Shown: piece after piece, positions 6,817-54,971 of the stretch
How the letters are laid out: every line of letters starts with the position of its first letter
Position numbering within the stretch: position 1 is the first letter of the stretch
NCBI RefSeq assembly: GCF_000374045.1
Contig: NZ_KB893359.1
Location: 186,001-250,000 of the forward strand
From: Segetibacter koreensis DSM 18137
GTDB lineage: Bacteria; Bacteroidota; Bacteroidia; Chitinophagales; Chitinophagaceae
Direction: 5' to 3'
DNA length: 64,000 nucleotides
Notes under the pieces: generated by a model
Told to the model about the DNA's origin: nothing
The model's database searches: none
The model's input: the letters and a program-made list of their open reading frames with translations, nothing else
Program-made: the position numbers and the translations under genes

Positions 6817-7020
6817 CGGTAAATGTACCTGAAAATTTGTTTTTACAGCATTTGTGAAAATAACAAAAACTCTTTTTACATGAGAATTATAAAATAATTG
6901 TTTGTACCCATAGAGTAAGAATTTGATAACAATTGCATAACCGCCAGTTAATAAAAGAATAACATAAAATAATAACTTTTGAAATTCTGTTATCAACAGT
7001 TATTTATATCCTAACTATAT

Positions 7021-7326
7021 ATGAAACCACATATAACGAATGTTAAACATAAAAAATTTTCTATGCTAATGGAAGATACCATTCAAAAACTGGAAGACAT
7101 ACCGGACCTGGAGAAAAAGCAGGTATCAGAAAAAATAAAAGAACTTAAAAACAATAAAAATGCATTAGAAGAAATATACGCAAATTACCAGGTTAAATTA
7201 AAAGAAGTCAGCAACCTGTTAGATAACTATGAGAGAACGCAACAAACATCGAGAATACAATTGCGCAAAATGCAATTGTGGCTAAAGTACACGCATACTA
7301 AACTGATGAAATACTTATTTCAATAA
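7021..7326 (+). CDS. Small coiled-coil protein, function unknown
   Basis: A 101-residue, highly charged Lys/Glu-rich protein with no signal peptide or TM helix. Residues 17-75 look like a continuous amphipathic helix or coiled coil (Leu/Ile spaced by 3-4 through DTIQKLEDIPDLEKKQ and ALEEIYANYQVKLKEV). I do not recognise a family. It stands alone between the divergent maf gene and a strong bidirectional terminator that begins about 30 nt after its stop. That isolated transcription unit with normal codon use supports a real gene. Start choice is uncertain because Met15 and Met17 are also possible. Confidence 0.5.
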   Translation: MKPHITNVKHKKFSMLMEDTIQKLEDIPDLEKKQVSEKIKELKNNKNALEEIYANYQVKLKEVSNLLDNYERTQQTSRIQLRKMQLWLKYTHTKLMKYLFQ

Positions 7327-7418: not shown

Positions 7419-8798
7419 TTATCTACCCCAAACCGCCCATTGAGCAGTCCAGTCATTTGAAGCATCCATTGCTCCTATAAAAGTAACCTTGTCAAAAAAA
7501 GCATCATTTAAAGTGCCCACGTCAAATTTTGCTTCTGTTGCAACAGCAGGCGAAGTAGCTTGTGGCTTCAGGTTTGGAGCAGCATTGTTAAAGGGATCAG
7601 TCAGCTTTATATCATCGGCATTTGCAAACAACTGACTTTTGTAAGTAGTAAGCGTTAGGCTCGATAATGTTGCAGAGTCAAGAAAAGTACCAACGTTGGC
7701 TACGCGGAAAGGACTTGCATAAGCATGTAAAAAGCTGTTATAAAAACGGCTTACGCCCTGCACATAGTACGAAGCTGTAGAGTCTTGTTCAATATCTAAC
7801 CCTGCTTTTTGTCCCCCCATCACTATAGAGTTAGCAAGTACAAATTTACTACCTCTTCTCCAACGCATTCCAAAACCATAATCTGCACTGGTATTAGCTG
7901 CATTGTTTGGGCCGATAGCTGTGAAGTTAGATAAAACAGGATAAGTAACAGGCGCTTTACTTAAAAGGAAACCATTGGAAGGGTTCACATTATCAACCTC
8001 AAAGTTGTTTGAGATATCACCTGTAGTACCTTTAGGATCAGTGAATGCAGGGTCTTTTACTGAAATAGCATATTGAATTTTTCCAGAAAAACCGTCATCC
8101 ATATCAAAATCGTCATCAGCAGAGTTATAAGCAATCAAATGCTTACAGTTTACAGTTCCACCAAAAAATTCGAAAGCATCATCAAGACCTCTTACCACCT
8201 GTACATAGTCAATAGTGGTTCCTGAACCTACACCGTACAGAGACAGGCCATTTACTTCATCACCCGGATTAACAGCTTTACCTGCATATTCAATTCTTAC
8301 ATATTTTAAAACTCCTGAATTATCTGCATCATTTGTTCCGCCGAAAACACTAAACTGCGGATCCACTCCGCCTTCTATTACAGAATGGTTACCATTTCCC
8401 TTTGCCTGTCCTACAAGAACAACACCTCCAAAATCACCAGGCGATGGAGCTGTTTCATTGGAGGTAAAAACGATAGGATCGGCAGCAGTACCTTGAGCCA
8501 TTATTTTTGCAGTCCGATATATAATAAGTACCCCTGCAGAGTCTTTATTAGAAACAATTTTGGTTCCCGGATCGATTGTAAGTGTAGCTCCGTTGGTGAC
8601 GTATACGTAACCCCGTAACCGATAAACCTTGTCTTTGGTCCAGTGTTGGTCGGTCGATATTACCCCCCTTATTTCTCCGGAAGAACTGGTGGTATCTGTC
8701 GGGTTTGTAACTGTTCCCGGATCCAACATGTCATCGCTCTTTTTACAAGAAGCAAAAAATATTGCTCCTAAACAAAACATAGCTGTTAGCTTTTTCAT
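7419..8798 (-). CDS. Outer-membrane/surface lipoprotein with right-handed beta-helix
   Basis: A 459-residue lipoprotein with signal MKKLTAMFCLGAIFFASC (Cys18 lipidated, followed by Lys-Lys as is typical for Bacteroidota). After a Thr/Ser linker, residues about 45-300 form short repeating strands rich in Gly, Asp and Asn (VYVTNGATLTIDPGTKI, PIVFTSNETAP, VLKYVRIEYAGKA, LDDAFEFFGGTVNCKH), the appearance of a parallel beta-helix. The Asp-rich segment SADDDFDMDDGFSG near 225 could bind calcium. It lies 104 bp downstream of a TonB-dependent receptor, and this pairing recurs in Bacteroidota, so it may act as a surface partner of that receptor. It has its own upstream TTAAC array, so it is not simply cotranscribed. 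Ligand unknown. Confidence 0.75.
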   Translation of the reverse strand: MKKLTAMFCLGAIFFASCKKSDDMLDPGTVTNPTDTTSSSGEIRGVISTDQHWTKDKVYRLRGYVYVTNGATLTIDPGTKIVSNKDSAGVLIIYRTAKIMAQGTAADPIVFTSNETAPSPGDFGGVVLVGQAKGNGNHSVIEGGVDPQFSVFGGTNDADNSGVLKYVRIEYAGKAVNPGDEVNGLSLYGVGSGTTIDYVQVVRGLDDAFEFFGGTVNCKHLIAYNSADDDFDMDDGFSGKIQYAISVKDPAFTDPKGTTGDISNNFEVDNVNPSNGFLLSKAPVTYPVLSNFTAIGPNNAANTSADYGFGMRWRRGSKFVLANSIVMGGQKAGLDIEQDSTASYYVQGVSRFYNSFLHAYASPFRVANVGTFLDSATLSSLTLTTYKSQLFANADDIKLTDPFNNAAPNLKPQATSPAVATEAKFDVGTLNDAFFDKVTFIGAMDASNDWTAQWAVWGR

Positions 8799-8841
8799 TT
8801 TTTCCTTAAAATTTTATTGAAACAAAACTCAATTTGTAATG

Positions 8842-8868
8842 TTAACCCAGCATTAAGCAATGGTTAAC
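8842..8868 (-). promoter_or_regulatory. 11-bp-phased TTAAC repeats upstream of the beta-helix lipoprotein gene (Pho-box-like)
   Basis: Three pentamers, TTAAC (8842), TTAAG (8853) and TTAAC (8864), sit exactly 11 bp apart, one helical turn each. The outer two are embedded in GTTAAC palindromes. The array ends 44 nt before the start codon at 8798. The spacing and core resemble B. subtilis PhoP sites (TTAACA repeats, 11-bp period). A matching array precedes the neighbouring receptor gene at the same distance. That a PhoB/PhoP-type regulator binds here is inference. Confidence 0.55.
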
Positions 8869-8902
8869 AATTGATGAATTAATAACCGGTGATAATAACT
8901 TC

Positions 8903-11710
8903 TTACTTGAAATTGTATTTAAATGAAACTGTGGTAGTGGTTCCGTATTTATACGAATTAATTATTCTGTCTTCGCCTGCTTTAAAGTTGATATTGGTTG
9001 CCTTCGGATCAAATTTGTAGTACCAGCTATAAGACTGTGCAAGTATATCACTGATGGTAAGCTTTATTTCAAACTTGTTTTTGGCAAGTTTTTTTGTTAT
9101 CTGCACATCAAACATATCTCTTGGCTTTTCATATATATTTAGACCCGCACCAAGTATTGATCTGAACCGCAATCTCGGTCCTATTTTATTATACAATGCA
9201 TTTACAACAAAATCATCTTCAGATGAAGAGTAAGTCAATCCACCATTTACAAGATATGGCGATTGGCCTTGTAGAGGATTGCTGCTGCTGATACCTCCAA
9301 ATGTTACCCCGCCTTTTATATAAGCAGCATTTGCATAAGCTGTTAGACGGCTAAAAAAAGCAGTATTAATAAAATCCATTTTTTTTCTTGCCTCCACTTC
9401 TATACCATATGCACTTGCATGATCTGCGTTGCTGTAAGAAAACTTATCGTTACCCAGGTTTACCTGCTCTATGGGCTTATCGAAATATTTATAAAACAAA
9501 CTTGCTGACAATATTTCTCCTGCCGCTGGAAACCATTCGTATTTCAGATCGGCATTGGTATTCTTAGCTCTTACCAGGTCAGGATTTCCGAGAACGGAAA
9601 TATAATTTTCGTAATCGTAAGTTTCATAAGAAGCGAGCTCCCTGAACTCTGGCCTGTTAACCGCCTGAGAACCGGCTAAACGCAAATTAGCTTTATTACT
9701 GAGAGAGTAAGTTAACAGTAATGAAGGCAACACGTCTGTATTGTCTTTTTCAATATTCTTCTTATTGGCGGCTGTTACTTTCTGGTTGTATTTCTCAACT
9801 CTTGCGCCCCAGGTCAGTTTCACCTTGTCTGAAAACTTATTATCAAGCATTACATAACCCGCGTTAGAAATCACCTGCCCTTTGTAATCAATAGATTGGG
9901 AAGGAATGTTGGCAAGTGATAAATTGTACTGATTAATTGTTTGTGGTTGTAACACATTTGAGAAATTTAATCCTTTTGAAATTTCAATAGGAGTCGATAC
10001 ACTGTTAAGTGTGCCATAGCCTAAAGCATCTACCTGTACATTTCTATCCCGGAAATAATTATAAGTGCCAAATTTTAACTTCTGCTGTTTTCCAAAAAGG
10101 TTGAATTGTTTGGTAAGGTTAAGATTTGCGGCATAAATTCCTTCGGATAAAAAAGAATAAATTCTACCCGCATTTCTTATTTCAGGCGAATTTTCGTAAC
10201 CGACTTTAAGATAATAAGTTGAAGGCGTACCGCTATTGGTAACAAACGTGAGTATTTTTTGATCAGGCTGATTTCTATAGGTTAAACCATAAGAGGTAGC
10301 CCAATCGACTGTCCAGCCTTTATTGAGACTATGCAAACCCTCGAGCACCGAGTTGAAAAGGCCATTGTTCATAGCCTCGGTGTTGGTACTCTTATAATAA
10401 AACACTTCGGGATTGTTCACCTCGTTGCGCCCGTTTCTTAATGCTACCGTTTTGGTAAATTCATTATTAAAAATATTTTTCCACGATAGCTTACTTTTTC
10501 CATAAGTGTAGGTAAGATTTAGCAAAGCTGACAAGTTCTTTCTTTCATCATAATTGGTGGTTCCATACTCATACTGAAAAAGCTTATCACTGGTGGCTAA
10601 GTATTCGTCCCTTACACGGTTTACAACTCTTCTGCCTGCACCATAATTAACAGAATAAATAAAACCTAACTTATTATTACCAATAATTTTGGTATCGCCG
10701 CCTGTATAGGAAAAACTTACATTAGGCATACTTTTATAAGCAGGATCAAAGCCAAAAGTATTGGGGAAAAGCTTGGTGACTTCTCTTTTAAAGTGAGGAG
10801 AAGTGTTGAAGAAAGCAGCGCCTCTTCTTCTATAATATGCACCAGGAATAAGCCGTGATTTGTTATCAAAAAAACCTGCCCAATCAAGATTGCCGTTATC
10901 CCTGCTTTTATAAAAATCTTTAAAAGTCGTTAGTGTATTAAAACCGACTGATAAAGACAATTCGTTTAACTGATTTGCAGGAAAATCTTTGGTGGAAACT
11001 TTAATCGCGCCGCCAGAGAAATCTCCTGGCAAGTCTGGTGTAGACGATTTATAGATTACCAGGTTATCTATTAAGGATGAGGGAATAATGTCAAATGAAA
11101 AAGCTTTTTTATCAGGTTCTGTGCTGGGCAATACGGAGTTATTGAGCAAGGAAGTATTATACCTTTCACTCAATCCCCTGATGACTACAAATTTATTATC
11201 CTGCACAGAAGCCCCGCTTACTCTTTTCAAAACCTCCCCGGTGCTTCTGTCTGGCGATCTCTTGATGGCCTCAGCAGAAATACCATCCGAAATAGATGAA
11301 CTGTTTTTTTGCTGAAGATATAATGATGAAACTGTTTCTTTTCGCGTACTTGCTGACCTTACCGTAACATTACTTAATTGGCTGCTGGTCCTTTGCAGGG
11401 CAATCGTGAACGTTTGACCTGCCGTTGCTGCAGAAATATTTTTTAATGTTTTAGATGTAAAACCGATGCTGCTTACGGAAATATTAAACTTACCATCTTG
11501 AGGTATCACTAAAAAAAAACCTCCTTCCGCATCTGAATTTGTACCTTTTTTATTTTGTTCTATTACTATAGAAGCTCCTACAATAGGGCTGTTACTTTCT
11601 ACATCTACTACTTTACCTGAAATTCTGTTAGTTTGCGCAGACCCAACTGAAACAATTTGAATAAGAAATAAGAAAATAAAAATTTTCTTTAGCGCTTTAT
11701 TAGCAGCCAT
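8903..11710 (-). CDS. TonB-dependent outer-membrane receptor with carboxypeptidase-regulatory-like N-terminal domain
   Basis: A 935-residue outer-membrane receptor. The signal peptide (about 1-25, SVGSAQ) is followed by a CarboxypepD_reg-like beta-sandwich (about 28-115, with the RISGKVVDVESNSPIVGAS start). A plug domain (about 140-240) contains VQDNKFVVIRGLSERYN and TPDLPGDFSGGAIKVSTK, and a long beta-barrel ends in aromatic/basic YNFK. No STN signalling domain is present, unlike the two SusC proteins in this window. It depends on the ExbB/ExbD system for energy. The paired lipoprotein lies just downstream. Regulation is suggested by the 11-bp-phased TTAAC array at 11760-11786. A phosphate-related substrate is a guess based only on that array; siderophore or peptide uptake is equally possible. 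Confidence 0.9.
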   Translation of the reverse strand: MAANKALKKIFIFLFLIQIVSVGSAQTNRISGKVVDVESNSPIVGASIVIEQNKKGTNSDAEGGFFLVIPQDGKFNISVSSIGFTSKTLKNISAATAGQTFTIALQRTSSQLSNVTVRSASTRKETVSSLYLQQKNSSSISDGISAEAIKRSPDRSTGEVLKRVSGASVQDNKFVVIRGLSERYNTSLLNNSVLPSTEPDKKAFSFDIIPSSLIDNLVIYKSSTPDLPGDFSGGAIKVSTKDFPANQLNELSLSVGFNTLTTFKDFYKSRDNGNLDWAGFFDNKSRLIPGAYYRRRGAAFFNTSPHFKREVTKLFPNTFGFDPAYKSMPNVSFSYTGGDTKIIGNNKLGFIYSVNYGAGRRVVNRVRDEYLATSDKLFQYEYGTTNYDERKNLSALLNLTYTYGKSKLSWKNIFNNEFTKTVALRNGRNEVNNPEVFYYKSTNTEAMNNGLFNSVLEGLHSLNKGWTVDWATSYGLTYRNQPDQKILTFVTNSGTPSTYYLKVGYENSPEIRNAGRIYSFLSEGIYAANLNLTKQFNLFGKQQKLKFGTYNYFRDRNVQVDALGYGTLNSVSTPIEISKGLNFSNVLQPQTINQYNLSLANIPSQSIDYKGQVISNAGYVMLDNKFSDKVKLTWGARVEKYNQKVTAANKKNIEKDNTDVLPSLLLTYSLSNKANLRLAGSQAVNRPEFRELASYETYDYENYISVLGNPDLVRAKNTNADLKYEWFPAAGEILSASLFYKYFDKPIEQVNLGNDKFSYSNADHASAYGIEVEARKKMDFINTAFFSRLTAYANAAYIKGGVTFGGISSSNPLQGQSPYLVNGGLTYSSSEDDFVVNALYNKIGPRLRFRSILGAGLNIYEKPRDMFDVQITKKLAKNKFEIKLTISDILAQSYSWYYKFDPKATNINFKAGEDRIINSYKYGTTTTVSFKYNFK

Positions 11711-11759
11711 GGTTTTTATAATTTGAGGACGAAATTCTACCTCTACTATTATTGAATTG

Positions 11760-11786
11760 TTAACTAAAAATTACTTTACCGTTAAC
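11760..11786 (-). promoter_or_regulatory. 11-bp-phased TTAAC repeats upstream of the TonB-dependent receptor gene (Pho-box-like)
   Basis: TTAAC (11760), TTACT (11771) and TTAAC (11782) are spaced exactly 11 bp. The flanks form an inverted repeat, TTGTTAAC ... GTTAACAA, with a 16-nt spacer. A fourth weaker unit, TTATT, lies at 11749. The array ends 50 nt before the start codon at 11710. Architecture, core sequence and distance all match the array in front of the lipoprotein gene, pointing to shared control by one dimeric or tandem-binding regulator. Confidence 0.55.
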
Positions 11787-19780: not shown

Positions 19781-22700
19781 TTAAAAGGTAACATTTACTC
19801 CGACCAAAAAATTCTTCTGATTATTTGGATAATTACCGTAATCTATTCCGAAAGCAGAACTGGCCTGAGTACCACCCAGGCTTCCGGCAAGTTCAGGATC
19901 TAGCCCGGTATATTTGGTGATCGTAAATAAATTAGCGGCTTGCAAGTATACCCTGATCTTGCTAACGTTATATCTTTTTAGTATCGCAGGATTAATGCTA
20001 TATCCCAGCATTAAAGATCTCAATTTAAGAAACGAACCATTTTCTTTATAGTAAGAATTGAAGACCCCGTTAGTGCTGAAGGTACTTGCATACTCCGCTA
20101 TAGGAGTTTTAGCGTTTGGGTTCTGGGGAGTCCATGCATTCTTTAACACGTTACTTTTTCCCTTGCCTTCTGACGTGCCAAAGAAATCAGTATAATAACG
20201 TACAAAGTTAATAACATCATTACCTTGCGATCCGTAAAAGATGGTTGAAAAGTCAAAACCTTTATAGGTTGCACTGAGGTTTACGCCATAAGTAAAGTCT
20301 GGGTTAGGATTACCAAAAAATGTACGGTCCTCCGGGTTTATCTGACCATCCCCATTCACATCTCTGTACCTGAAACGACCCGGCGCCGCATCTGTTTGTG
20401 TCGGAGATTTTGATACTTCAGCATCGTTTTGGAATAGACCTACCACTTCATAACCATAGAAAGAGCCTACAGGGTGACCAACCTGGTTGCGAACCAGATT
20501 ACCTATGCGTGAACCTGAAACATCAAAATAACCGGGATCAGGAATTGTAACCACTGAATTTTTATAAGTAGTAAGGTTTACTCCTATATTGTACTTAAAA
20601 TTATTAGTTCCATTGCCATGATAGTTAGCAGAGAAATCCCACCCTTTATTTTGAATATCGCCGATGTTTATGGTTGGGGGATCAGCATTGCCAGTAGTTG
20701 CGGGCAAAGGCTGGGGAAATAATAAGCCATTGACAGACTTTTTATACCACTCTACAGAAAGATCTACTTTGTAATTAAGAATGGTAGCATCTACTCCTGC
20801 GTTTGAAATAATATCCTGCTCCCACCCGGTGTTGGGGTTTCCATTTCTTGACTGAAAAAATCCTTGGCGTGTAGAGCCGGAGCCAGTCATGTCATAATAG
20901 GAAGTGCCAAACCCGGAACCAAACAGAGTGAATGCATTAGAAGCACCTACGTTTGCCTGTGATCCCAAAATGCCATAACTGCCTCTGACTTTTAGGTCAT
21001 TTATGAAAGCCACACTTTTCATGAATTCCTCATTAGATACTCTCCATCCTAATGAAAATGATGGGAATATACCGTATCGTTTGTTTGAACCAAATACAGA
21101 AGATCCATCTCTTCGAATTGTAGCTCCCAGTAAATATTTGTCATTGAAAGAATAATCCAGGCGACTAAAGAGAGAAAATAAAGTATTTACGTAAGCATTA
21201 CTATAATTTGTAACGTTACTTGTCCCGTTATTTAGAAAAAGGTAATTAGGATCGGTCGAGAAAAAACCATTAGAACTTCCTCCCAATGCTTCACCATAAT
21301 TTTTAACCGCTTCAGAGCCCGCTAATACTTTAATACTGTGTTTACCAAATGTATTATTATAGTTTAGCGTATTCGTAAAGGTGTAACTACTATTAAAAAA
21401 AGCATTCTCGTTATAGCTATTCTGACTGGTATGGCCTTGCTTGTCATTATAAGCATTAAAGGTAAAATTATGTGTGCTTTGGTGATCAACAGTGCCTCCA
21501 AAACTGCTGCGGGCAGTAAAGTGATTAAGAAAACTTACTTCAGCATATACGTTACCTATTACATCCCATGCATTGTTTTTGTTATTGGCGGTCCGTTGCT
21601 GCACCGCCACAGCATTTTCTACTGTACCGAGTTCAGGCCCTAACCATGTACCTCCATAATTTCCTTTTATATCATATACCGGTATTACGGGCAATGTGCG
21701 GAAAGCTAAAGAAACCGCATTACCTTCCTGCTGATTACTAAAGCCAGGATTTTGCTTGTAAAATAAATAAACGTTTTCTCCGATTTTTATATTTTTGTTT
21801 ATCTTCAGTTCGGTATTAACCCTTGCAGAATATCTTTTTAAATAGGTATTTATTAATGTTCCCTGCTGATCTAAATAACCCAGCGAAAACAAGTAATTAG
21901 ACTTATCTGTTCCGCCGCTACCAGTGATAGTATGGCTTTGCATGGGTGCCGGCTTAAAAATTTCATGAAACCAGTCGGTGCCGGATTTATTTATTCGTTG
22001 AATCAGGTAGTCGCTTCCCGGGTTTGATGCATCAAAATTATAATTTGCAGGATCAACGGCCGCGTCTCCCTCCATAGCTGTACCCGCACTCGAGGGGCCT
22101 GCATATGTATAATCAGGAAGTCCATTTGCAAATAATACAGTTCCTGGATTTACCTGCTTGAAAAGTGTAGCGTAATCCTGGGAGTTTAATAAATTAAATA
22201 CGTTGCCTTTGGAGGGAGTTTGAACGCCATAATAGGAATCTAATGAAATAGTTGGTTGACCAGACTTTCCTTTTTTTGTGGTTATTACAATTACCCCATT
22301 GGAACCTCGCACACCATAAATAGAAGCAGCACCTGCATCTTTTAATACCTGCATGGAGGCTATGTCATTTATATTCAGGTCTGATAAGCTTCCCTGGACA
22401 CCATCGACAATAATTAAAGGTTGAGAATTTCCGAATGAAGTCACCCCGCGGATAAAAATGTCATTTCGTCCGCCCGGGGCACCGGAGCCAATTACAGTTA
22501 CTCCTGAAGCTTGCCCCTGCAGTGCCTGCTCGGCAGAACCTGTTGGAATAGATTTTAAAGCATTCACATCCACAACCGCTACTGAGCCGGTTATATCCTT
22601 TTTCCTTTGAATGGAGTATCCTGTCATGACAACTTCATTCAATACTTTTGTCTCTTCTGAAAGGTTTACATTAATGATACTTTGTCCACCAACCGGTATT

Positions 22701-23299
22701 TCTTTTATGATATAGCCAATTGAACTAAATACTAAAGTGCCATTATCAGCTACATTAATTGAATATTCGCCGTTAGCGTTAGTGGAAGTGCCGGTTTCTG
22801 TTCCTTTTACGTGCACAGTTACTGCAGCAATCGGCTTTCCGGCACTGTCAGCTACTTTACCTTTAACGATCTGATCTTTGATTACATCCTTTAAGACTTT
22901 CAAAGACGCATAACTTACCTCACTATTAACCCTGTTGCTTTCTTTGTTTTCATTAATCTTTTCTTTAGATACTATGGTGTAATAGTTTTCTTTTACATAA
23001 AGGAACACTAATCCATTGGGGTAAAGAATGGCTTTTAGTACCTCCTCTAACGACTTACCTTTTATAAGCTCCTCCTTGTAAGACGTTGTCTTACCATCCA
23101 GCAACGATTTTTCATACACAAACTTTGAATTAAATACATCACTTACGTTTTTCAGTGCCGTTGCAAGCGATATCACTTTCTCTTTTTCGTCATGGCCAAA
23201 TTGTAATTGTCCCGGTTGCGCATAGATACTTTCCCCTGCTGAACACAGGAAAAGAACTAAACTTGTCCAGCCGATAAACTTGAAAAAAATTTTCATCAT
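19781..23299 (-). CDS. SusC/RagA TonB-linked outer-membrane protein with STN signalling domain (locus copy 1)
   Basis: A 1172-residue outer-membrane importer. After the signal peptide, residues about 40-112 form an STN domain (NSKFVYEKSLLDGK, then ILYPNGLVFLYVKENYYTIV) that contacts a FecR-type anti-sigma factor. A CarboxypepD_reg-like domain follows (about 142-225, IVKGKVADSAGKPIAAVTVH). The plug carries SusC signatures (NDIFIRGVTSF, PLIIVDGVQG, IASMQVLKDAGAASIYG, VIVITTKKG). The barrel ends NFLVGVNVTF with a terminal Phe. Together with the SusD 29 bp downstream it imports an unknown oligomer using TonB energy. The STN region is very like that of the second SusC, and both genes share a leader motif. 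The start codon is doubled (Met-Met). Confidence 0.95.
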   Translation of the reverse strand: MMKIFFKFIGWTSLVLFLCSAGESIYAQPGQLQFGHDEKEKVISLATALKNVSDVFNSKFVYEKSLLDGKTTSYKEELIKGKSLEEVLKAILYPNGLVFLYVKENYYTIVSKEKINENKESNRVNSEVSYASLKVLKDVIKDQIVKGKVADSAGKPIAAVTVHVKGTETGTSTNANGEYSINVADNGTLVFSSIGYIIKEIPVGGQSIINVNLSEETKVLNEVVMTGYSIQRKKDITGSVAVVDVNALKSIPTGSAEQALQGQASGVTVIGSGAPGGRNDIFIRGVTSFGNSQPLIIVDGVQGSLSDLNINDIASMQVLKDAGAASIYGVRGSNGVIVITTKKGKSGQPTISLDSYYGVQTPSKGNVFNLLNSQDYATLFKQVNPGTVLFANGLPDYTYAGPSSAGTAMEGDAAVDPANYNFDASNPGSDYLIQRINKSGTDWFHEIFKPAPMQSHTITGSGGTDKSNYLFSLGYLDQQGTLINTYLKRYSARVNTELKINKNIKIGENVYLFYKQNPGFSNQQEGNAVSLAFRTLPVIPVYDIKGNYGGTWLGPELGTVENAVAVQQRTANNKNNAWDVIGNVYAEVSFLNHFTARSSFGGTVDHQSTHNFTFNAYNDKQGHTSQNSYNENAFFNSSYTFTNTLNYNNTFGKHSIKVLAGSEAVKNYGEALGGSSNGFFSTDPNYLFLNNGTSNVTNYSNAYVNTLFSLFSRLDYSFNDKYLLGATIRRDGSSVFGSNKRYGIFPSFSLGWRVSNEEFMKSVAFINDLKVRGSYGILGSQANVGASNAFTLFGSGFGTSYYDMTGSGSTRQGFFQSRNGNPNTGWEQDIISNAGVDATILNYKVDLSVEWYKKSVNGLLFPQPLPATTGNADPPTINIGDIQNKGWDFSANYHGNGTNNFKYNIGVNLTTYKNSVVTIPDPGYFDVSGSRIGNLVRNQVGHPVGSFYGYEVVGLFQNDAEVSKSPTQTDAAPGRFRYRDVNGDGQINPEDRTFFGNPNPDFTYGVNLSATYKGFDFSTIFYGSQGNDVINFVRYYTDFFGTSEGKGKSNVLKNAWTPQNPNAKTPIAEYASTFSTNGVFNSYYKENGSFLKLRSLMLGYSINPAILKRYNVSKIRVYLQAANLFTITKYTGLDPELAGSLGGTQASSAFGIDYGNYPNNQKNFLVGVNVTF

Positions 23300-30607: not shown

Positions 30608-33600
30608 TTAAAGGGTTACCCGTATTGAAATGCCATAAGAACGGGTAGATGGAAGGTTATACGCCTCTATACCCTGTAAACTATTTGAAGCATTAATGCT
30701 TACTTCAGGATCAAAAGGCGCTTTTTTGTAAAAGAAGAATACATTTCTTCCCACCAGTGAAAGTGTTAATTCTTTAATTACACTATTTACTTTGGGGAAA
30801 GTATAGCCTAACGCAAGCTCTCTCAAACGGACATTAGTTGCATCAAAGAAATATTCTGAAACGGCTCCCTGGCTGCCAGCTCCGGTTTGGTTATAATAAT
30901 AAGCTTTTGCATCAATTAGCTTTCCATTTACCATCACCCCGCCATTATCCCTGGCTATTGCTGTTCTTTTCGACAATCCCTTGTAATCAAGCCATCGCTC
31001 TGTTGCAGAAGCTACTCCACCCCCAAATCTTCCATCAATCAAAAACGAGAGTGAAATGTTTTTGTAATTAAACTTATTATTAAAACCTATTAAAAATTTA
31101 GGATTTGCATTCCCAATGTATTGATCAGCAGCAGCAGACAGCAATGGCAAACCGGTACTATCCGTTACCATATTACCCTTTTCATCTTTGAGATATGTTT
31201 TGCCAAACATATCTCCATACGAACCATACTTACCATCTTTTGGCTTGGTTAAGAAAAGAGCAACTAATCTTGTTGAGTTATAGTCGGTCAAAACAAACCG
31301 ATCAGCTTTTAGAAGACTGCTTAATTCACGTATTTGGTTGTTGTTTTGGGAAAAAGTTATAGTAGGCGTCCACTTTACTTTTCCGAAATTTGAATTGTAA
31401 CTTAAAACTGCTTCAATTCCTTTATTTAAAATAGTTCCCCCATTGATCCAAAAGTTAGAAGCACCGGCACCGGCAGGAGCCTGAATTTGAAATACCTGGT
31501 CGTAGGTTGTGGCGTTATAATAAGTGAGACTTAAACTTAATTTATTTTGTAGAAATCTAAAATCACCTCCTACCTCAAATGATTTTGTACGCTCCGGTTT
31601 TAATTGTGCAGTGTCAGTACCATTAAAGAAAGGCAACGCATTTCTTCCATTAACATTCCCGTTATTATCCAATGAATAAGGCGGAGCAAAGTTGGCTACT
31701 CCAAAAGGCAAACTATTTCCTACCTGTGCGTAAGATCCTCTTATTTTAGCGAAGGATAAATTTGAATTAGCAGGTTGATTAATCAATACATAAGACAAAC
31801 CGAAGGAAGGATAAAAGAAGGACTGGGCTACTGTAGAACTCCATTCGTTTCTTGCCGTTACATCTACATACAACTTTTCTTTGTACCCGATAGTTAGGTT
31901 GCCAAATACAGCCTGGTTGGTGATTTTAGTTAAAGATTCTGATTTATTAAATTGCCCGTTTAAAGCATATATAGAAAAGAAATTGGGGTAAGACAAGGAA
32001 GTAGCAAGTGTACTTGACAACGCAATGTTAGAATAATCATTTTGTGTATTACTAAAACCAACGGTTCCTGATAGAGACACATTTTTATTTAGGTCTTTGT
32101 TACCTACCAGCAATACATCTGAATACAGTTGATTTGTATTCGTTCTGCTTTTTGCATAACCTCCATTAATGCCCGATTCAATTGGATCTGTCGAAGCACT
32201 GATTCGTTGTTCGTAAGTATCTTCAACTTTATCATACGTTGTTCTTCCTTGCAGATTTAGCCAATCAAAAATTCTATATTTTGCGGTGAAGGAGAAAATG
32301 GTACGATCACGAAAAAGATCATTCTGATCTCTTTTCTGTATCCAATATGGGTTTTGACTGTTAAGGGTTTCATTTCTTATGTAGGGCCAGTTTTGAACAT
32401 ACATTTGTCTTACAGGATCCCATACTTCGAAATTTTTACCGCTATATTTTGACCAATCATCGCCTGTAGGAAATGAATAAAGCGGAAAAATAGGGCTAAA
32501 GTTAAAACCAGCCTGCGGGCGGTTATAGACTTTTTGATTGATGTAATTTACAGAAGCATCAAGAGATAATCTATCATTCAGTAACTGGGTGGTGGCCCTT
32601 AGGTTAAGATTATGTTTATTAAGATGGTTTTCAGGAACAATTCCATTAACCTCGGTATTAGCATAAGACACATAAAACTGCCCCAGGTCATTACCATTCG
32701 ATACAGAAACAGCGTTGATAAAGTTTTTACCTGTTTGAAAAAATTCCTTCAGATGCCTGTCACTGCCGTTAGTAATTTTAGGTCCCCAGCTATCATTCAA
32801 AGTCGGGTCGCTTTGCCCATAGGTAGTTTGTAATTGAGGTAATCCAATAGGCTCTTCTAAGATAGTTGTAGAAGAAAAATCAATTTTGGCAACTCCTTTT
32901 CTTCCCTTTTTGGTAGTTATTAAAATGACACCGTTGGCTGCCTGGCTACCATATAAGGCGGCAGCAGATGCTCCTTGCAATATTTGCACACTTTGTATAT
33001 CCTCAGGATTGATATTAGAAATTGCATCACCACCATCAAATGCTCCGTACAAGCCTCCGGTCTGGCTGCCGGTTGCATTATTCATGGGAACGCCGTCTAT
33101 AACATATAACGGAGAATTATTGCCGGTTATTGATTTATTACCACGAAGTATAATCCTTGAAGAACTGCCGGGACCACCGCCGCCTTTTGTTATAACCACC
33201 CCCGCTGCTTTCCCCGCAAGGGTGTTCATAAAATTAGCGTCTTTCACCTTGTTCACTTCTTCTCCCGAAACATTTTGAGTAGCATATGTTATGCTTTTTG
33301 CACTTTTCTCTATACCTAATGCTGAAACAACTACGGTTTCCAATTGGTTTCTTTGAGAAGACAGCTGAACGTTAATAACATCCCTTCCATTTATTTTTTC
33401 TGTAAGGGTTTCCATTCCTACATATGTAAAAATTAGGTTTGAAACATTATCAGGAACTCTGATAGAATATTCGCCTTCACTGTTAGTAATGGTACCCCTT
33501 GATCCGTTAACGCTAACGCTTACACCAGCGATACCTTTTTGGGTACTATCCGTGACCCTACCTTTAATAATTCTATCTTCTTTAATATCATTTGAAGTAA

Positions 33601-34030
33601 CAGATGAATAATTAACGTGCCTGTTTTCAGCAAACGTCATTGTGTTATCTGTACCTGTATTATCATTTACAAAACCCTTATTATCATAAATTTGTTCTTT
33701 TGCGATAATGGTGAAATAATTTTCTTTTACGTAAAGAAAAACTAAACCATTAGGATATAAAATGCCTTTTAACACATCTTCCAGGTGCATTCCTTTTTTG
33801 TAATTTTCATCATAAAAACACGTTTTACCTTCTATTATAGATTTATCGTAAACAAATTTTGTATCGAATATTCTATTTACATTTCTTAATGCATCAGTAA
33901 GCGGAATAACGTTATTTTTTTTTACAGGCTTTTGTGATGAGTAGGTCTGGGCAAAGCCAAAATTTACTGTCAAATAAAACGTAACAGTTAAAAATGTGCA
34001 GGCAAGACATTTCAAGTGATTTTTAATCAT
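30608..34030 (-). CDS. SusC/RagA TonB-linked outer-membrane protein with STN signalling domain (locus copy 2)
   Basis: A 1140-residue importer built like the first SusC: signal peptide (about 1-28), STN domain (about 42-112, with TKFVYDKSIIEGK and ILYPNGLVFLYVKENYFTII), CarboxypepD_reg-like domain (about 152-230, RIIKGRVTDSTQKGIAGVSV), plug with SRIILRGNKSI, PLYVIDGVPMNNA and SVQILQGASAAALYGSQAAN, and a barrel ending YGISIRVTL. The STN segment is nearly the same as in the other SusC, while plug and barrel differ, which fits different ligands and common signalling. The FecR gene is immediately upstream (150 bp), the usual position for its regulated SusC. The same 19-nt leader motif lies 7 nt from the start. 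Confidence 0.95.
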   Translation of the reverse strand: MIKNHLKCLACTFLTVTFYLTVNFGFAQTYSSQKPVKKNNVIPLTDALRNVNRIFDTKFVYDKSIIEGKTCFYDENYKKGMHLEDVLKGILYPNGLVFLYVKENYFTIIAKEQIYDNKGFVNDNTGTDNTMTFAENRHVNYSSVTSNDIKEDRIIKGRVTDSTQKGIAGVSVSVNGSRGTITNSEGEYSIRVPDNVSNLIFTYVGMETLTEKINGRDVINVQLSSQRNQLETVVVSALGIEKSAKSITYATQNVSGEEVNKVKDANFMNTLAGKAAGVVITKGGGGPGSSSRIILRGNKSITGNNSPLYVIDGVPMNNATGSQTGGLYGAFDGGDAISNINPEDIQSVQILQGASAAALYGSQAANGVILITTKKGRKGVAKIDFSSTTILEEPIGLPQLQTTYGQSDPTLNDSWGPKITNGSDRHLKEFFQTGKNFINAVSVSNGNDLGQFYVSYANTEVNGIVPENHLNKHNLNLRATTQLLNDRLSLDASVNYINQKVYNRPQAGFNFSPIFPLYSFPTGDDWSKYSGKNFEVWDPVRQMYVQNWPYIRNETLNSQNPYWIQKRDQNDLFRDRTIFSFTAKYRIFDWLNLQGRTTYDKVEDTYEQRISASTDPIESGINGGYAKSRTNTNQLYSDVLLVGNKDLNKNVSLSGTVGFSNTQNDYSNIALSSTLATSLSYPNFFSIYALNGQFNKSESLTKITNQAVFGNLTIGYKEKLYVDVTARNEWSSTVAQSFFYPSFGLSYVLINQPANSNLSFAKIRGSYAQVGNSLPFGVANFAPPYSLDNNGNVNGRNALPFFNGTDTAQLKPERTKSFEVGGDFRFLQNKLSLSLTYYNATTYDQVFQIQAPAGAGASNFWINGGTILNKGIEAVLSYNSNFGKVKWTPTITFSQNNNQIRELSSLLKADRFVLTDYNSTRLVALFLTKPKDGKYGSYGDMFGKTYLKDEKGNMVTDSTGLPLLSAAADQYIGNANPKFLIGFNNKFNYKNISLSFLIDGRFGGGVASATERWLDYKGLSKRTAIARDNGGVMVNGKLIDAKAYYYNQTGAGSQGAVSEYFFDATNVRLRELALGYTFPKVNSVIKELTLSLVGRNVFFFYKKAPFDPEVSINASNSLQGIEAYNLPSTRSYGISIRVTL

Positions 34031-51776: not shown

Positions 51777-54700
51777 CTACAACTTTAGAAATTGCTTATA
51801 TAAAATCTTATTTCCATTTATAATCTTTATTGTATATACTCCTTTTGTTAGTGATGATACATCAAGTTGTATAACTTTAGTTGAGTTGTTTGATTGAATG
51901 GTTTTTAGCACAACTCCCGATGCAGATATGATGAATATAGTAGTTTGTTTATTCTGTTGTAACTGATCTGCAGAAATATGTAAACTGCTATGTGTAGGAT
52001 TAGGACTTAATGTTAATCTTAATTTACCTGTTTCCTTTCTTTCATGAAATGCCCTGCTGCTTACTATCGTTGCGTCTGTGACTATTATGGTAACAGGTAA
52101 CGAAGTTGTCGACACCCCTTTATCATCATACGCCTTAGCAGTAACAGTATAAGTGCCAGGCTGTACACTAGTCCATGTGTAAGTATAGGGATAAATGTAT
52201 TCCGTTCTTAATAAAACAGATCCATTATAAAACTCTACTTTACTTATTTTATCATTGGGATCTTTTGCTTTAGCTAATAAAAAAATGGTTGCTGGGCCGG
52301 TATAGGTTGTATCAGCGACAGGACTTATAATGCGCACAACAGGTTGTACGTTAAAATCAACTACGGACACTTCTATTTTGTTTGATGTAATTACGTTGCC
52401 TTTAGCATCGTAGGCTTTTGCAGTAAGGTTGTAATTACCTAAGGGAACATTGTCCCACAAAAATCCGTAAGGAGAAATAGTTTCCGTATGAAGTAGGGTT
52501 GCGCCATTGTAAAACCTGACTTTTTTTATAGCTGCCACTTCGTTAGTAACTGTAGCGTTGAGTTTAATTCTTGCAGGTGCAGTGTACTTTACAATATTGT
52601 AAGGCATGGAAAGAGTTACAGTCGGAGTTTTGATGTTATCAAGAAAATACCTGGCAACAACTCCAACAGAACCGGGAGTCTCGGCAGAGCCTACAGCATA
52701 TAATTTATTATTGAAAATTGCAATATCGTTAATAACATCGCTTCCAGCGCTTACGTCTGTTATTTGTTTTCCGGCTTTGCCAAAAGTATTATCCAAACTT
52801 CCGTTTGGGTTGTATCGAGCAAGGGCAAATTTAGAATTAATAAAATTTTGATCAGCAATGCCTGCCACTACAATCTTTCCATCATTTTCAATAGCCACTG
52901 AGTTAGCTTGAGAAGTTACTCCAAAATCAGTCGTTAGCTTTCCATCTCCTGAAAAAGTAGAATCAAGGGTTCCATTAGTATTGTATCGGACAAGAGTAAA
53001 ATCGTAATCATTATTGCCAAGACCTACACCTGCCATTACAATTTTTCCATCACTTTGTATGGCTACAGAGTTGGCCTGATCATAGTACGAATCTAAAAAT
53101 GTAATTTGCTTTCCATCTTTTGAAAAGCTTTTATCCGGTGTGCCGTCAGTATTATACCGGGCGAGCGCAAAAGCAAAACCTGCATGTTCACCAGCATTAC
53201 CGGCTATTACAATCTTTCCATCATTTTGTATCAATACCGAGTTAGCGAAAGAATCAAAACCAAAATCTGTTTCTTGCTTTCCATCCGCAGAAAAAGTTAC
53301 ATCAAAGGAGCCATCAGTATTGTAGCGGGCAACCGCAAATCGAAAATAGTCACCCTTGTCGATAGAGCCTGCAACAACAATCTTTCCATCTCTCTGTATG
53401 GCCACAGCGGACGCCAAATAATTGGTAGTTACCTTTCCATCACCGGAAAAAGTAGTATCAAGGGTGCCATCTACGTTATAGCGGGCAAGAGCGGCAGAAA
53501 AGCCCACCACTACAATCTTTCCATCATTTTGTATAGCCAAAGCACGTCCATTCAAAACAGTTGTTTTCTTTACATTTCGTAAAAAGGCAGAATCAAGGGT
53601 GCCATTGATATTGTAGCGGGCAAGAGCAGTACCCGCTACTACAATTTTTCCATCACTTTGTATGGCTGTAGTTGTATAATTTGTATACCCGGTATGTAAG
53701 CGGTCAATAAATATCCCGGCTGACGAGAAGGTAGTATCAAGATTGCCGTTGGTATTATACCTGGCAAGAGCAAAATCAATTCCACTCGACCCAGCCACCA
53801 CGATCTTTCCGTCACTTTGTACCGCCATCGATCTGACTTCCACATAGCCAGATCCAAAATTTGTAATTTGCTTTCCATCTCCGGAAAAAGTAGAGTCAAT
53901 AGTACCATCCGTATTGTAACGGGCAAGGGCAGAACCAGAATTCAATGTACTTTGATTGCAAATACCTGCCGCCACAATCTTTCCATCACTTTGTATGGAC
54001 ACAGCGTTTGCTTCATCGTCTCCAAATTCGAAATCAGTTGTAAGCTTTCCATCTGTTGAAAAAGTAGTATCAGGGGTGCCATCAGCATTATAGCGTGCAA
54101 GTGCAAAGTCAGGAGTGCCAGAATTTGAATACTTATTAGCGACACCTGCCAGTACAATTTTTCCATCACTTTGTATGGCTACCGAATATGCTTCATCATC
54201 TCCTGAGGAGAAATCAGTCGTTTGTTTACCATTTTGTGCAAAAGCAGAATCAAGGGTGCCATCAGGATTGTATCGCGCAAGGACAAAAGTATGGTTAACA
54301 ACAGGCTGATCACCTCGCCCTGCAATTATAATTTTTCCATCACTTTGTAGAGTTACTGGAAAAACAAAAAAATCGGTCAGTTGCTTTCCATCTGTTGAAA
54401 AAGTAGAATCAAGGGTGCCATCGGTATTGTACCGGACAAGGGCAGTACCTGCCACCAAAATCTTTCCATCATTTTGTATCGCTACAGATCGCGCGACGTC
54501 GAACTGGCCGTCAACGTCTGTTATCTGTACTCCGTCTTGAGAAAACGTAGAATCGAGGGTGCCATTAGTATTATAACGGGCAAGGGCAAAATCTTCGTCC
54601 AAACCTGAGGAAGACGTACCTGCTATTACAACTTTCCCATCGTTTTGTAAAACGGCCGGAACTCCATATGATATGCCGACTCGAATACCAATAGCTTCTG

Positions 54701-54971
54701 TGTAGCCATTGTTACCGTAAGTTGTATCTATAGTACCATTAGCAAGTATGCGGGTAATAACAGTTTGAAGATTTGTTTCAAAAACCAGGTATAGAGTACC
54801 ATTTTTTTGTGTTAAAACCTGTTTGCCAGATGCACCGTAAGGAGAACCAGATCCATCAAACTCTGTGCGAACTATTCCATTTTTACCAAAAGCCGAGTCA
54901 AGAGTACCTGGCTGCAAGTAGCAAATTTTAAAACAACAAGCGGCTGCAATAAATAAAATAAGCTTTTTCAT
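51777..54971 (-). CDS. Delta-60 repeat protein with two Ig-like domains and a T9SS sorting tail
   Basis: A 1064-residue secreted protein. The signal peptide (about 1-19) is followed by 14 delta-60-type repeat units. Each is roughly 45-60 residues with the core G-T-L-D-S-T-F-S-x-D-G-K and the partner strand IQSDGKIVVAG, consistent with a beta-propeller-like array. Two Ig-like domains follow (about 775-865 and 868-960, with KKVRFYNGATLLHTE and SKVEFYNGSVLLRTE). The last 80 residues form a T9SS type A sorting domain (LRLTLSPNPTHSSLHI, then GVYTIKIINGNKILYKQFLKL). It is probably displayed on the surface; adhesion or scaffolding is likely but not shown. A decayed copy of its 3' end lies upstream at 55.3-55.6 kb. 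Confidence 0.9.
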   Translation of the reverse strand: MKKLILFIAAACCFKICYLQPGTLDSAFGKNGIVRTEFDGSGSPYGASGKQVLTQKNGTLYLVFETNLQTVITRILANGTIDTTYGNNGYTEAIGIRVGISYGVPAVLQNDGKVVIAGTSSSGLDEDFALARYNTNGTLDSTFSQDGVQITDVDGQFDVARSVAIQNDGKILVAGTALVRYNTDGTLDSTFSTDGKQLTDFFVFPVTLQSDGKIIIAGRGDQPVVNHTFVLARYNPDGTLDSAFAQNGKQTTDFSSGDDEAYSVAIQSDGKIVLAGVANKYSNSGTPDFALARYNADGTPDTTFSTDGKLTTDFEFGDDEANAVSIQSDGKIVAAGICNQSTLNSGSALARYNTDGTIDSTFSGDGKQITNFGSGYVEVRSMAVQSDGKIVVAGSSGIDFALARYNTNGNLDTTFSSAGIFIDRLHTGYTNYTTTAIQSDGKIVVAGTALARYNINGTLDSAFLRNVKKTTVLNGRALAIQNDGKIVVVGFSAALARYNVDGTLDTTFSGDGKVTTNYLASAVAIQRDGKIVVAGSIDKGDYFRFAVARYNTDGSFDVTFSADGKQETDFGFDSFANSVLIQNDGKIVIAGNAGEHAGFAFALARYNTDGTPDKSFSKDGKQITFLDSYYDQANSVAIQSDGKIVMAGVGLGNNDYDFTLVRYNTNGTLDSTFSGDGKLTTDFGVTSQANSVAIENDGKIVVAGIADQNFINSKFALARYNPNGSLDNTFGKAGKQITDVSAGSDVINDIAIFNNKLYAVGSAETPGSVGVVARYFLDNIKTPTVTLSMPYNIVKYTAPARIKLNATVTNEVAAIKKVRFYNGATLLHTETISPYGFLWDNVPLGNYNLTAKAYDAKGNVITSNKIEVSVVDFNVQPVVRIISPVADTTYTGPATIFLLAKAKDPNDKISKVEFYNGSVLLRTEYIYPYTYTWTSVQPGTYTVTAKAYDDKGVSTTSLPVTIIVTDATIVSSRAFHERKETGKLRLTLSPNPTHSSLHISADQLQQNKQTTIFIISASGVVLKTIQSNNSTKVIQLDVSSLTKGVYTIKIINGNKILYKQFLKL

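Follow-up and report, generated by a model that had tools for sequence, protein, structure and literature searches.

The genes for a TonB-dependent receptor and for the lipoprotein that follows it in Segetibacter koreensis DSM 18137 are each preceded by an array of tandem 11-bp direct repeats, and it is highly probable, judging from sequence, that these arrays are Pho boxes, i.e. tandem direct-repeat sites for PhoB, a regulator of the OmpR family. Pho boxes are defined as tandem 11-nt direct repeats with about seven conserved and four less conserved positions (PMC4415409), and Bacteroidota are described as answering the loss of phosphate through PhoB (PMC3547664). The window that we analysed, by which we mean the whole stretch of 64,000 nucleotides, covers bases 186001-250000 of contig NZ_KB893359.1 (C46 in our numbering), in a genome of 6.1 Mb (GC 37%). 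The anatomy of the arrays, their register to the promoter, their conservation, their association with phosphate genes and the presence of PhoB and PhoR, which are all observations on sequence, support the Pho-box reading; from them we infer occupancy by PhoB, activation, a response to phosphate and the nature of the ligand. Receptors and lipoproteins under phosphate control, with no ligand assigned to them, have already been described (PMC8115612). Repeats of a similar kind stand before genes of phosphate uptake in many relatives, some pst loci excepted, so that genes of phosphate hunger may be predictable from sequence: a rule combining the array with its promoter register would allow phosphate-starvation genes to be predicted from genomes and then tested in culturable strains. 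The features on which the argument turns are the following.

8903..11710, minus strand: TonB-dependent receptor of 935 amino acids with a CarboxypepD_reg-type N-terminal domain (Pfam TonB_dep_Rec_b-barrel, CarbopepD_reg_2 and Plug)
7419..8798, minus strand: lipoprotein of 459 amino acids, predicted parallel beta-helix, with a lipobox-like stretch ending at Cys18
11742..11785, minus strand: Pho-box-like array before the receptor gene, four 11-bp units TTAACGGTAAA GTAATTTTTAG TTAACAATTCA ATAATAGTAGA, held-out matrix score 14.7 over the last three units
11730..11737, minus strand: candidate -7 element GAATTTCG, a weak match to TAnnTTTG, its TTCG end 23 bp from where the last unit of the receptor array begins
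8835..8867, minus strand: Pho-box-like array before the lipoprotein gene, units TTAACCATTGC TTAATGCTGGG TTAACATTACA, score 24.2, the top score in the window
8823..8830, minus strand: candidate -7 element GAGTTTTG, its TTTG end 23 bp from where the last unit of the lipoprotein array begins

The original prediction had placed three pentamers at exact 11-bp steps before each gene. Positions and spacing were right, and so were the GTTAAC pairs (8841 with 8863, 11759 with 11781; 22 bp within each pair), as well as the distance from the pentamer closest to the gene to its start codon (44 nt from 8798 for the lipoprotein, 50 nt from 11710 for the receptor); the middle units of the plus strand are not TTAAC, being TTAAG at 8853 and TTACT at 11771. 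Both genes are carried by the minus strand, and in the coding direction the sites read as tandem 11-bp direct repeats, with pentamers TTAAC/TTAAT/TTAAC before the lipoprotein gene and TTAAC/GTAAT/TTAAC/ATAAT before the receptor gene; the repetition is cleaner in this orientation, and the receptor array has a fourth unit. One might take the spaced palindromes for the dyad operator of a local repressor of receptor and lipoprotein, the middle units being then accidental, and the pattern GTTAAC-N16-GTTAAC is indeed found nowhere else in the genome. None of 29 loci with relatives of the lipoprotein contains it, however, for which reason the dyad was abandoned for the direct-repeat reading and the palindromes are regarded as incidental; before the receptor, coding-oriented 11-bp units are conserved, often together with their promoter register. 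A dyad operator is very unlikely.

It is worth emphasizing that counts of degenerate patterns within the own genome tell us nothing, and that comparative evidence decides. The two places where GTTAAC-N16-GTTAAC occurs are both these arrays, and counting alone proves nothing, because the reversed control pattern also occurs at two places; three successive KTAAY units are found at two sites, both within these arrays, against one for the control. The raw counts of sites and controls were 2/2, 2/1, 6/5 and 20/30, with no clear excess over the reversed controls. These counts, close to or below their controls, would suit a fortuitous spacing of TTAAC in AT-rich intergenic DNA, a view that is contradicted by the comparative data (a held-out matrix set against Markov sequence, conservation before orthologues, the promoter register and the pst operon), so that chance can be given next to no weight. 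The arrays are real.

The matrix in question describes one unit in 11 columns (kTAACATTnnn, consensus TTAACATTGCG); it was trained only on the receptor upstreams of 11 other genomes, promoters being left out, and its information is concentrated in the best conserved positions, TAACAnT. Of the distinct sites in the window it ranked the array of the lipoprotein first (24.2) and that of the receptor second (14.7), followed by a third array that the original prediction had not mentioned (14.0 for units 1-3, 15.2 for units 1-4), while Markov sequence yielded 0.05 matches of at least 14 per 64-kb strand and none of at least 16 in 20 runs. The third site comprises the following features.

6915..6969, plus strand: third-ranked distinct window site with the held-out matrix, an array of five units GTAAGAATTTG ATAACAATTGC ATAACCGCCAG TTAATAAAAGA ATAACATAAAA
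6974..6981, plus strand: candidate -7 element AACTTTTG, following the third array at the 23-bp register seen at the other two
7021..7326, plus strand: lysine-rich open reading frame (ORF) of 101 amino acids downstream of the third array, with no Pfam match

When the 20 own-genome sites with two units and a TTYG (30 in the control) were ordered with the matrix, the lipoprotein array came first (24.2), followed by an array before the pst operon (22.3), the receptor array (14.7) and a promoter-phased array of moderate score (9.5) before a small lipoprotein gene (L338, G000:C68:253351); 12.2 was the four-unit score of the third window array, and the 15 sites left scored -3 or less over three. Two other TonB-receptor genes of the window (19781-23299 and 30608-34030), which constitute a small set of negative controls, have no array of at least 14; the gene at 51777-54971 encodes a DUF5122 beta-propeller/type IX secretion system protein, not a TonB receptor. 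The nearby phosphoesterase gene (PF04185, 15678-16613), said to have no such array, has indeed none among the top matrix sites. Across 147 genomes from the family the perfect three-unit pattern was found at five sites, against one for the control, and two units plus the -7 element at 12 sites, against none.

Lipoprotein homologues were found in 67 of 79 relatives, and in all 11 best loci, which were those fetched, a receptor homologue adjoins the lipoprotein homologue, the 11-bp tandem unit is visible upstream of the receptor, and the lipoprotein gene either begins within about 90 bp after the receptor gene or overlaps it. Thirty receptor loci were collected, of which 18 were neither own nor used in training; one of them (L286), where the contig ends inside the gene, was set aside, leaving 17 evaluable. 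An array of at least 14 precedes the receptor in 16 of these 17 held-out relatives, and the remaining one scored 11.1. Among the upstreams of ORFs of at least 150 amino acids in 24 fetched loci and the window, 23 of 315 scored at least 14 and Markov resamples of these upstreams never exceeded 14.5, it being understood that these loci were selected for receptor or phosphate genes and are no random sample. Receptors account for 12 of the 23 (ten belong to training loci), genes before pstS for five and lipoproteins for two, and the other four encode an outer-membrane beta-barrel, a metallophosphoesterase, a protein with DUF5690 and one with Porin_O_P. A calcineurin-like phosphoesterase gene (L042:10775-11626) has an array scoring 26.4, and a gene that looks by eye like a phosphoesterase gene (L087:1-539) has one scoring 16.8; both are possible members of the regulon with a role in lipid remodelling.

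The link with phosphate comes from the genes that carry the same array. In the own genome the array scoring 22.3 lies directly before a gene for a protein of 411 amino acids, itself followed by pstS, two permease genes, the gene of an ATP-binding cassette (ABC) ATPase and phoU; the 411-residue protein has no Pfam match, and genes at the equivalent position elsewhere match Porin_O_P. TIGR02136, used to find PstS, mostly matched PstS-like genes below its cut-off (five of 59 genomes have a match above it). Eleven loci around a PstS-type gene were collected, and an array of at least 20 precedes the gene before pstS in five of them, namely the own genome and four others (L110, L113, L114 and L115), which agrees with the phosphate role that the original prediction had proposed for the receptor pair. 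Enrichment near phosphate genes, suggested as a check, is likewise borne out by arrays before some Pit, PhoU-like and Porin O/P genes of other genomes, as well as by that of the pst-phoU operon. In several relatives the receptor stands beside Pit and DUF47/PhoU-like genes, and an own-genome array (L120, G000:C6:28186-28215) lies 50 bp before a DUF47/PhoU-like gene, on the opposite strand. Similar arrays were seen in PHO4 loci of the same genus (L090, L092 and L093).

A wider search for the perfect three-unit array in 84,980 species genomes gave at least 117 loci, of which 80 were classified and 37 were not; lipoprotein homologues were present in six of the 117, among the matches listed. Forty-nine of the 80 were taken as Bacteroidota (one Ignavibacteriales locus included), eight of these, from Paludibacteraceae and Candidatus Colicola, being excluded as interspersed tandem repeats, and seven of the remaining 41 had no downstream ORF, which leaves 34 genes. 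Among the matches listed, these array-selected genes comprise Porin_O_P in 8/34, PHO4 in 2/34 and a PhoU-like gene in 1/34. The 31 loci from other phyla had a downstream ORF in 21 cases, including, again among the matches listed, two ABC permeases (PstC-like by eye) and one each of a PstS-type gene, PHO4 and a Na/Pi cotransporter. The excluded loci (L129, L130, L150, L168, L178, L194, L198 and L201) show near-identical runs of an 11-bp repeat, C/G-TCATAACATT, at several places, and most of these runs are followed by a similar TGCTAC motif; they are either a family of repeats or a promoter array that has expanded.

The arrays often have a common position with respect to the promoter. The -7 element of Bacteroidota has the consensus TAnnTTTG, which the window candidates fit only in part. 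At all three window sites the distance between the beginning of the last unit and the end of the candidate, TTTG at two sites and TTCG at the receptor, is 23 bp. The same register of TTTG recurs in 26 of 38 arrays of the 30 receptor loci (training loci included), in four of six arrays of the pst set, in four of 14 in the loci of lipoprotein relatives, and in 18 of 39 arrays from 26 array-selected Bacteroidota loci hand-picked among the 41. Further TTTGs stand exactly one 11-bp step off in these four sets (five, two, four and four, respectively). Such a register accords with an activator that sits directly upstream of the -7 element.

A single clear PhoB orthologue is encoded in the genome (G000:C11:102207-102863), followed by a PhoR-like histidine kinase. 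It scored 221.5 bits with TIGR02154, below the cut-off of 296.2, the next-best match in the genome reaching 177.5; it is 54.6% identical to the phoR-linked PhoB of Flavobacterium laiguense, a value that falls to 37% or less when seven further OmpR-type regulators from the own genome are compared, and the own kinase is 43.8% identical to the neighbouring F. laiguense PhoR. Its matches in the Protein Data Bank (PDB) include chains of the E. coli PhoB DNA-binding domain, such as 1gxp. The region of its recognition helix reads DRTIDVHIRKIR; the recognition helix of E. coli PhoB is DRTVDVHIRRLR. The receptor, lipoprotein, phoB, phoR and porin genes form one cluster both in Flavobacterium fluvii (L171, with Pfam assignments) and in F. 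laiguense (L183), and in the former the arrays score 26.1 at the porin, 26.6 at pstS and 14.9 at the receptor. Pontibacter mangrovi (L185) has an array of its own at each of the receptor (17.3), lipoprotein (24.4) and porin (22.6) genes, as the window has for receptor and lipoprotein.

A number of observations, in addition to the raw pattern counts, weigh against reading the arrays as Pho boxes. The gene preceding pstS has weak arrays in L117 (12.5) and L118 (13.9) and no array of at least 12 in L108, L109, L111 and L116; the own PHO4 locus is without an array; the F. laiguense cluster has an array of at least 12 at the porin only; the lipoprotein has a separate array in only 5/29 relatives; and 23/34 array-selected Bacteroidota genes carry no phosphate label among the matches listed, a few of them being of the CarboxypepD/TonB type. 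Phosphate depletion did not induce OprP of the phoBR cluster in F. johnsoniae (-1.3, not significant; PMC8115612). Furthermore, the 12 two-unit promoter-phased sites of the family mostly precede genes which, judged by eye, have no obvious phosphate role, some resembling extracytoplasmic function sigma factors, which points either to a broad regulon or to a lack of specificity of two-unit sites.

These sites, together with the own phoB region, which has no array (best three-unit score -0.3, on the phoB strand), would suit another regulator of the OmpR family with a similar 11-bp preference, the phosphate genes being then shared targets of a different stress response; tandem half-sites of about 11 bp are common in that family. 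Opposed to this are the strong three-unit arrays of the fetched loci, located mostly at the receptor, at the gene before pstS and at other phosphate-labelled genes, the fact that a single one of eight own OmpR-type regulators compared stands out as the PhoB orthologue, and the array-bearing cluster that includes phoB and phoR in two flavobacteria. We consider another regulator improbable.

We may now compare the arrays, read as Pho boxes, with known systems. They share with the PhoB/PhoP boxes of E. coli, Bacillus and Streptomyces the tandem 11-nt repeats, a place before pst genes and an orthologous two-component regulator, and they differ from them in the unit, kTAACATTnnn here and CTGTCAT or GTTCACC in E. 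coli and Streptomyces, respectively, as given in PMC4415409. They further differ in that many arrays have at least three units, and in a common register to the Bacteroidota -7 element. Four characteristics of a Pho box are found here: 11-nt tandem repeats with a conserved core, a fixed promoter position, phosphate genes downstream in the own genome, and a PhoB orthologue; binding by PhoB and a response to phosphate, a further characteristic, are reported only for the B. fragilis pst promoter and for F. johnsoniae genes, respectively. The receptor and lipoprotein form the same type of gene pair as the TonB-dependent receptor and FI/FII clusters (PUSIII/PUSIV) induced by phosphate depletion in F. 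johnsoniae, and the F. fluvii and F. laiguense relatives, beside phoB-phoR and a porin, reproduce the gene set listed for its phoBR cluster (PMC8115612). The receptor and FII lipoprotein of that cluster, Fjoh_0545/0546, are reported as strongly induced, with fold-change entries of 8.02 and 9.91 in the transcriptome of phosphate depletion; the window pair, unlike it, is away from phoBR, with a separate array for each gene. The main text of PMC8115612 contains none of the terms 'pho box', 'motif', 'promoter' and 'binding site'. In Bacteroides fragilis PhoB binds the pst promoter in an electrophoretic mobility shift assay, with a fragment of 512 bp and no box mapped in the account given (PMC3547664). 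Pho boxes were predicted at plcP clusters of marine bacteria, whose membership in the Bacteroidota is not stated where they are described (PMC4796936), and our literature searches found no published mapped Pho box or operator for Bacteroidota. In the ElpS/CC_0171 system of Caulobacter crescentus the gene of the phosphate-starvation-induced surface lipoprotein similarly adjoins a TonB-dependent receptor gene; unlike the window pair, ElpS requires a type II secretion system for its release and its linked receptor is reported as constitutive (PMC2996285), and its link to the window lipoprotein runs only through FI/FII as stated in PMC8115612.

A plausible course of events would be as follows. When phosphate becomes scarce, phosphorylated PhoB would bind the arrays head-to-tail, with about one molecule per 11-bp unit along one face of the DNA, and the row of PhoB adjoining the -7 element would replace the -33 contact and recruit RNA polymerase, as in class II activation. 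The receptor and its beta-helix lipoprotein partner would thus be switched on together with the pst-phoU operon, and the pair would probably capture an extracellular phosphorus-containing ligand, as predicted for the Flavobacterium FI/FII clusters, the lipoprotein acting in capture or cleavage at the surface and the receptor in TonB-driven import. More tentatively, at slightly less than even chances, we propose that this is a phosphate promoter code of the whole Bacteroidota phylum, made of head-to-tail kTAACATTnnn units of which the last is in 23-bp register to the -7 element, with a PhoB row in place of the -33 contact; the number and quality of units may set promoter strength, and the code would reveal unannotated members such as the 101-residue ORF at 7021-7326.

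The receptor matches NCBIfam TIGR01782 below its cut-off. The lipoprotein has no match in Pfam and none, by sequence, in the PDB; its AlphaFold model has a mean pLDDT (predicted local distance difference test) of 61.6, most ten-residue blocks of residues 41-250 being above 80 and the C-terminal part being of low confidence, and it aligns to beta-helix proteins with Z of about 19-23. Foldseek gave one match below 0.001, from which no enzyme identity is drawn. Together with the lipobox-like stretch, the model upholds the beta-helix lipoprotein label as a prediction. Translated searches with the lipoprotein (tblastn) found relatives in F. laiguense (35%, residues 5-224) and F. fluvii (34%, residues 1-204), both beside a TonB-dependent receptor and phoB; we regard the window protein, a predicted parallel beta-helix, as a relative of the FI/FII lipoproteins.

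The 101-residue ORF is a possible third target of the arrays, on the strength of its place downstream of one; it has no homologue below E 0.07 in the collected loci except itself. Together with the third array it is flanked by a maf gene on one side and by the end of the lipoprotein gene on the other, and ExbD- and ExbB-like genes, the energizers of TonB, are found at 94-1689 of the window, about 7 kb from the receptor gene.

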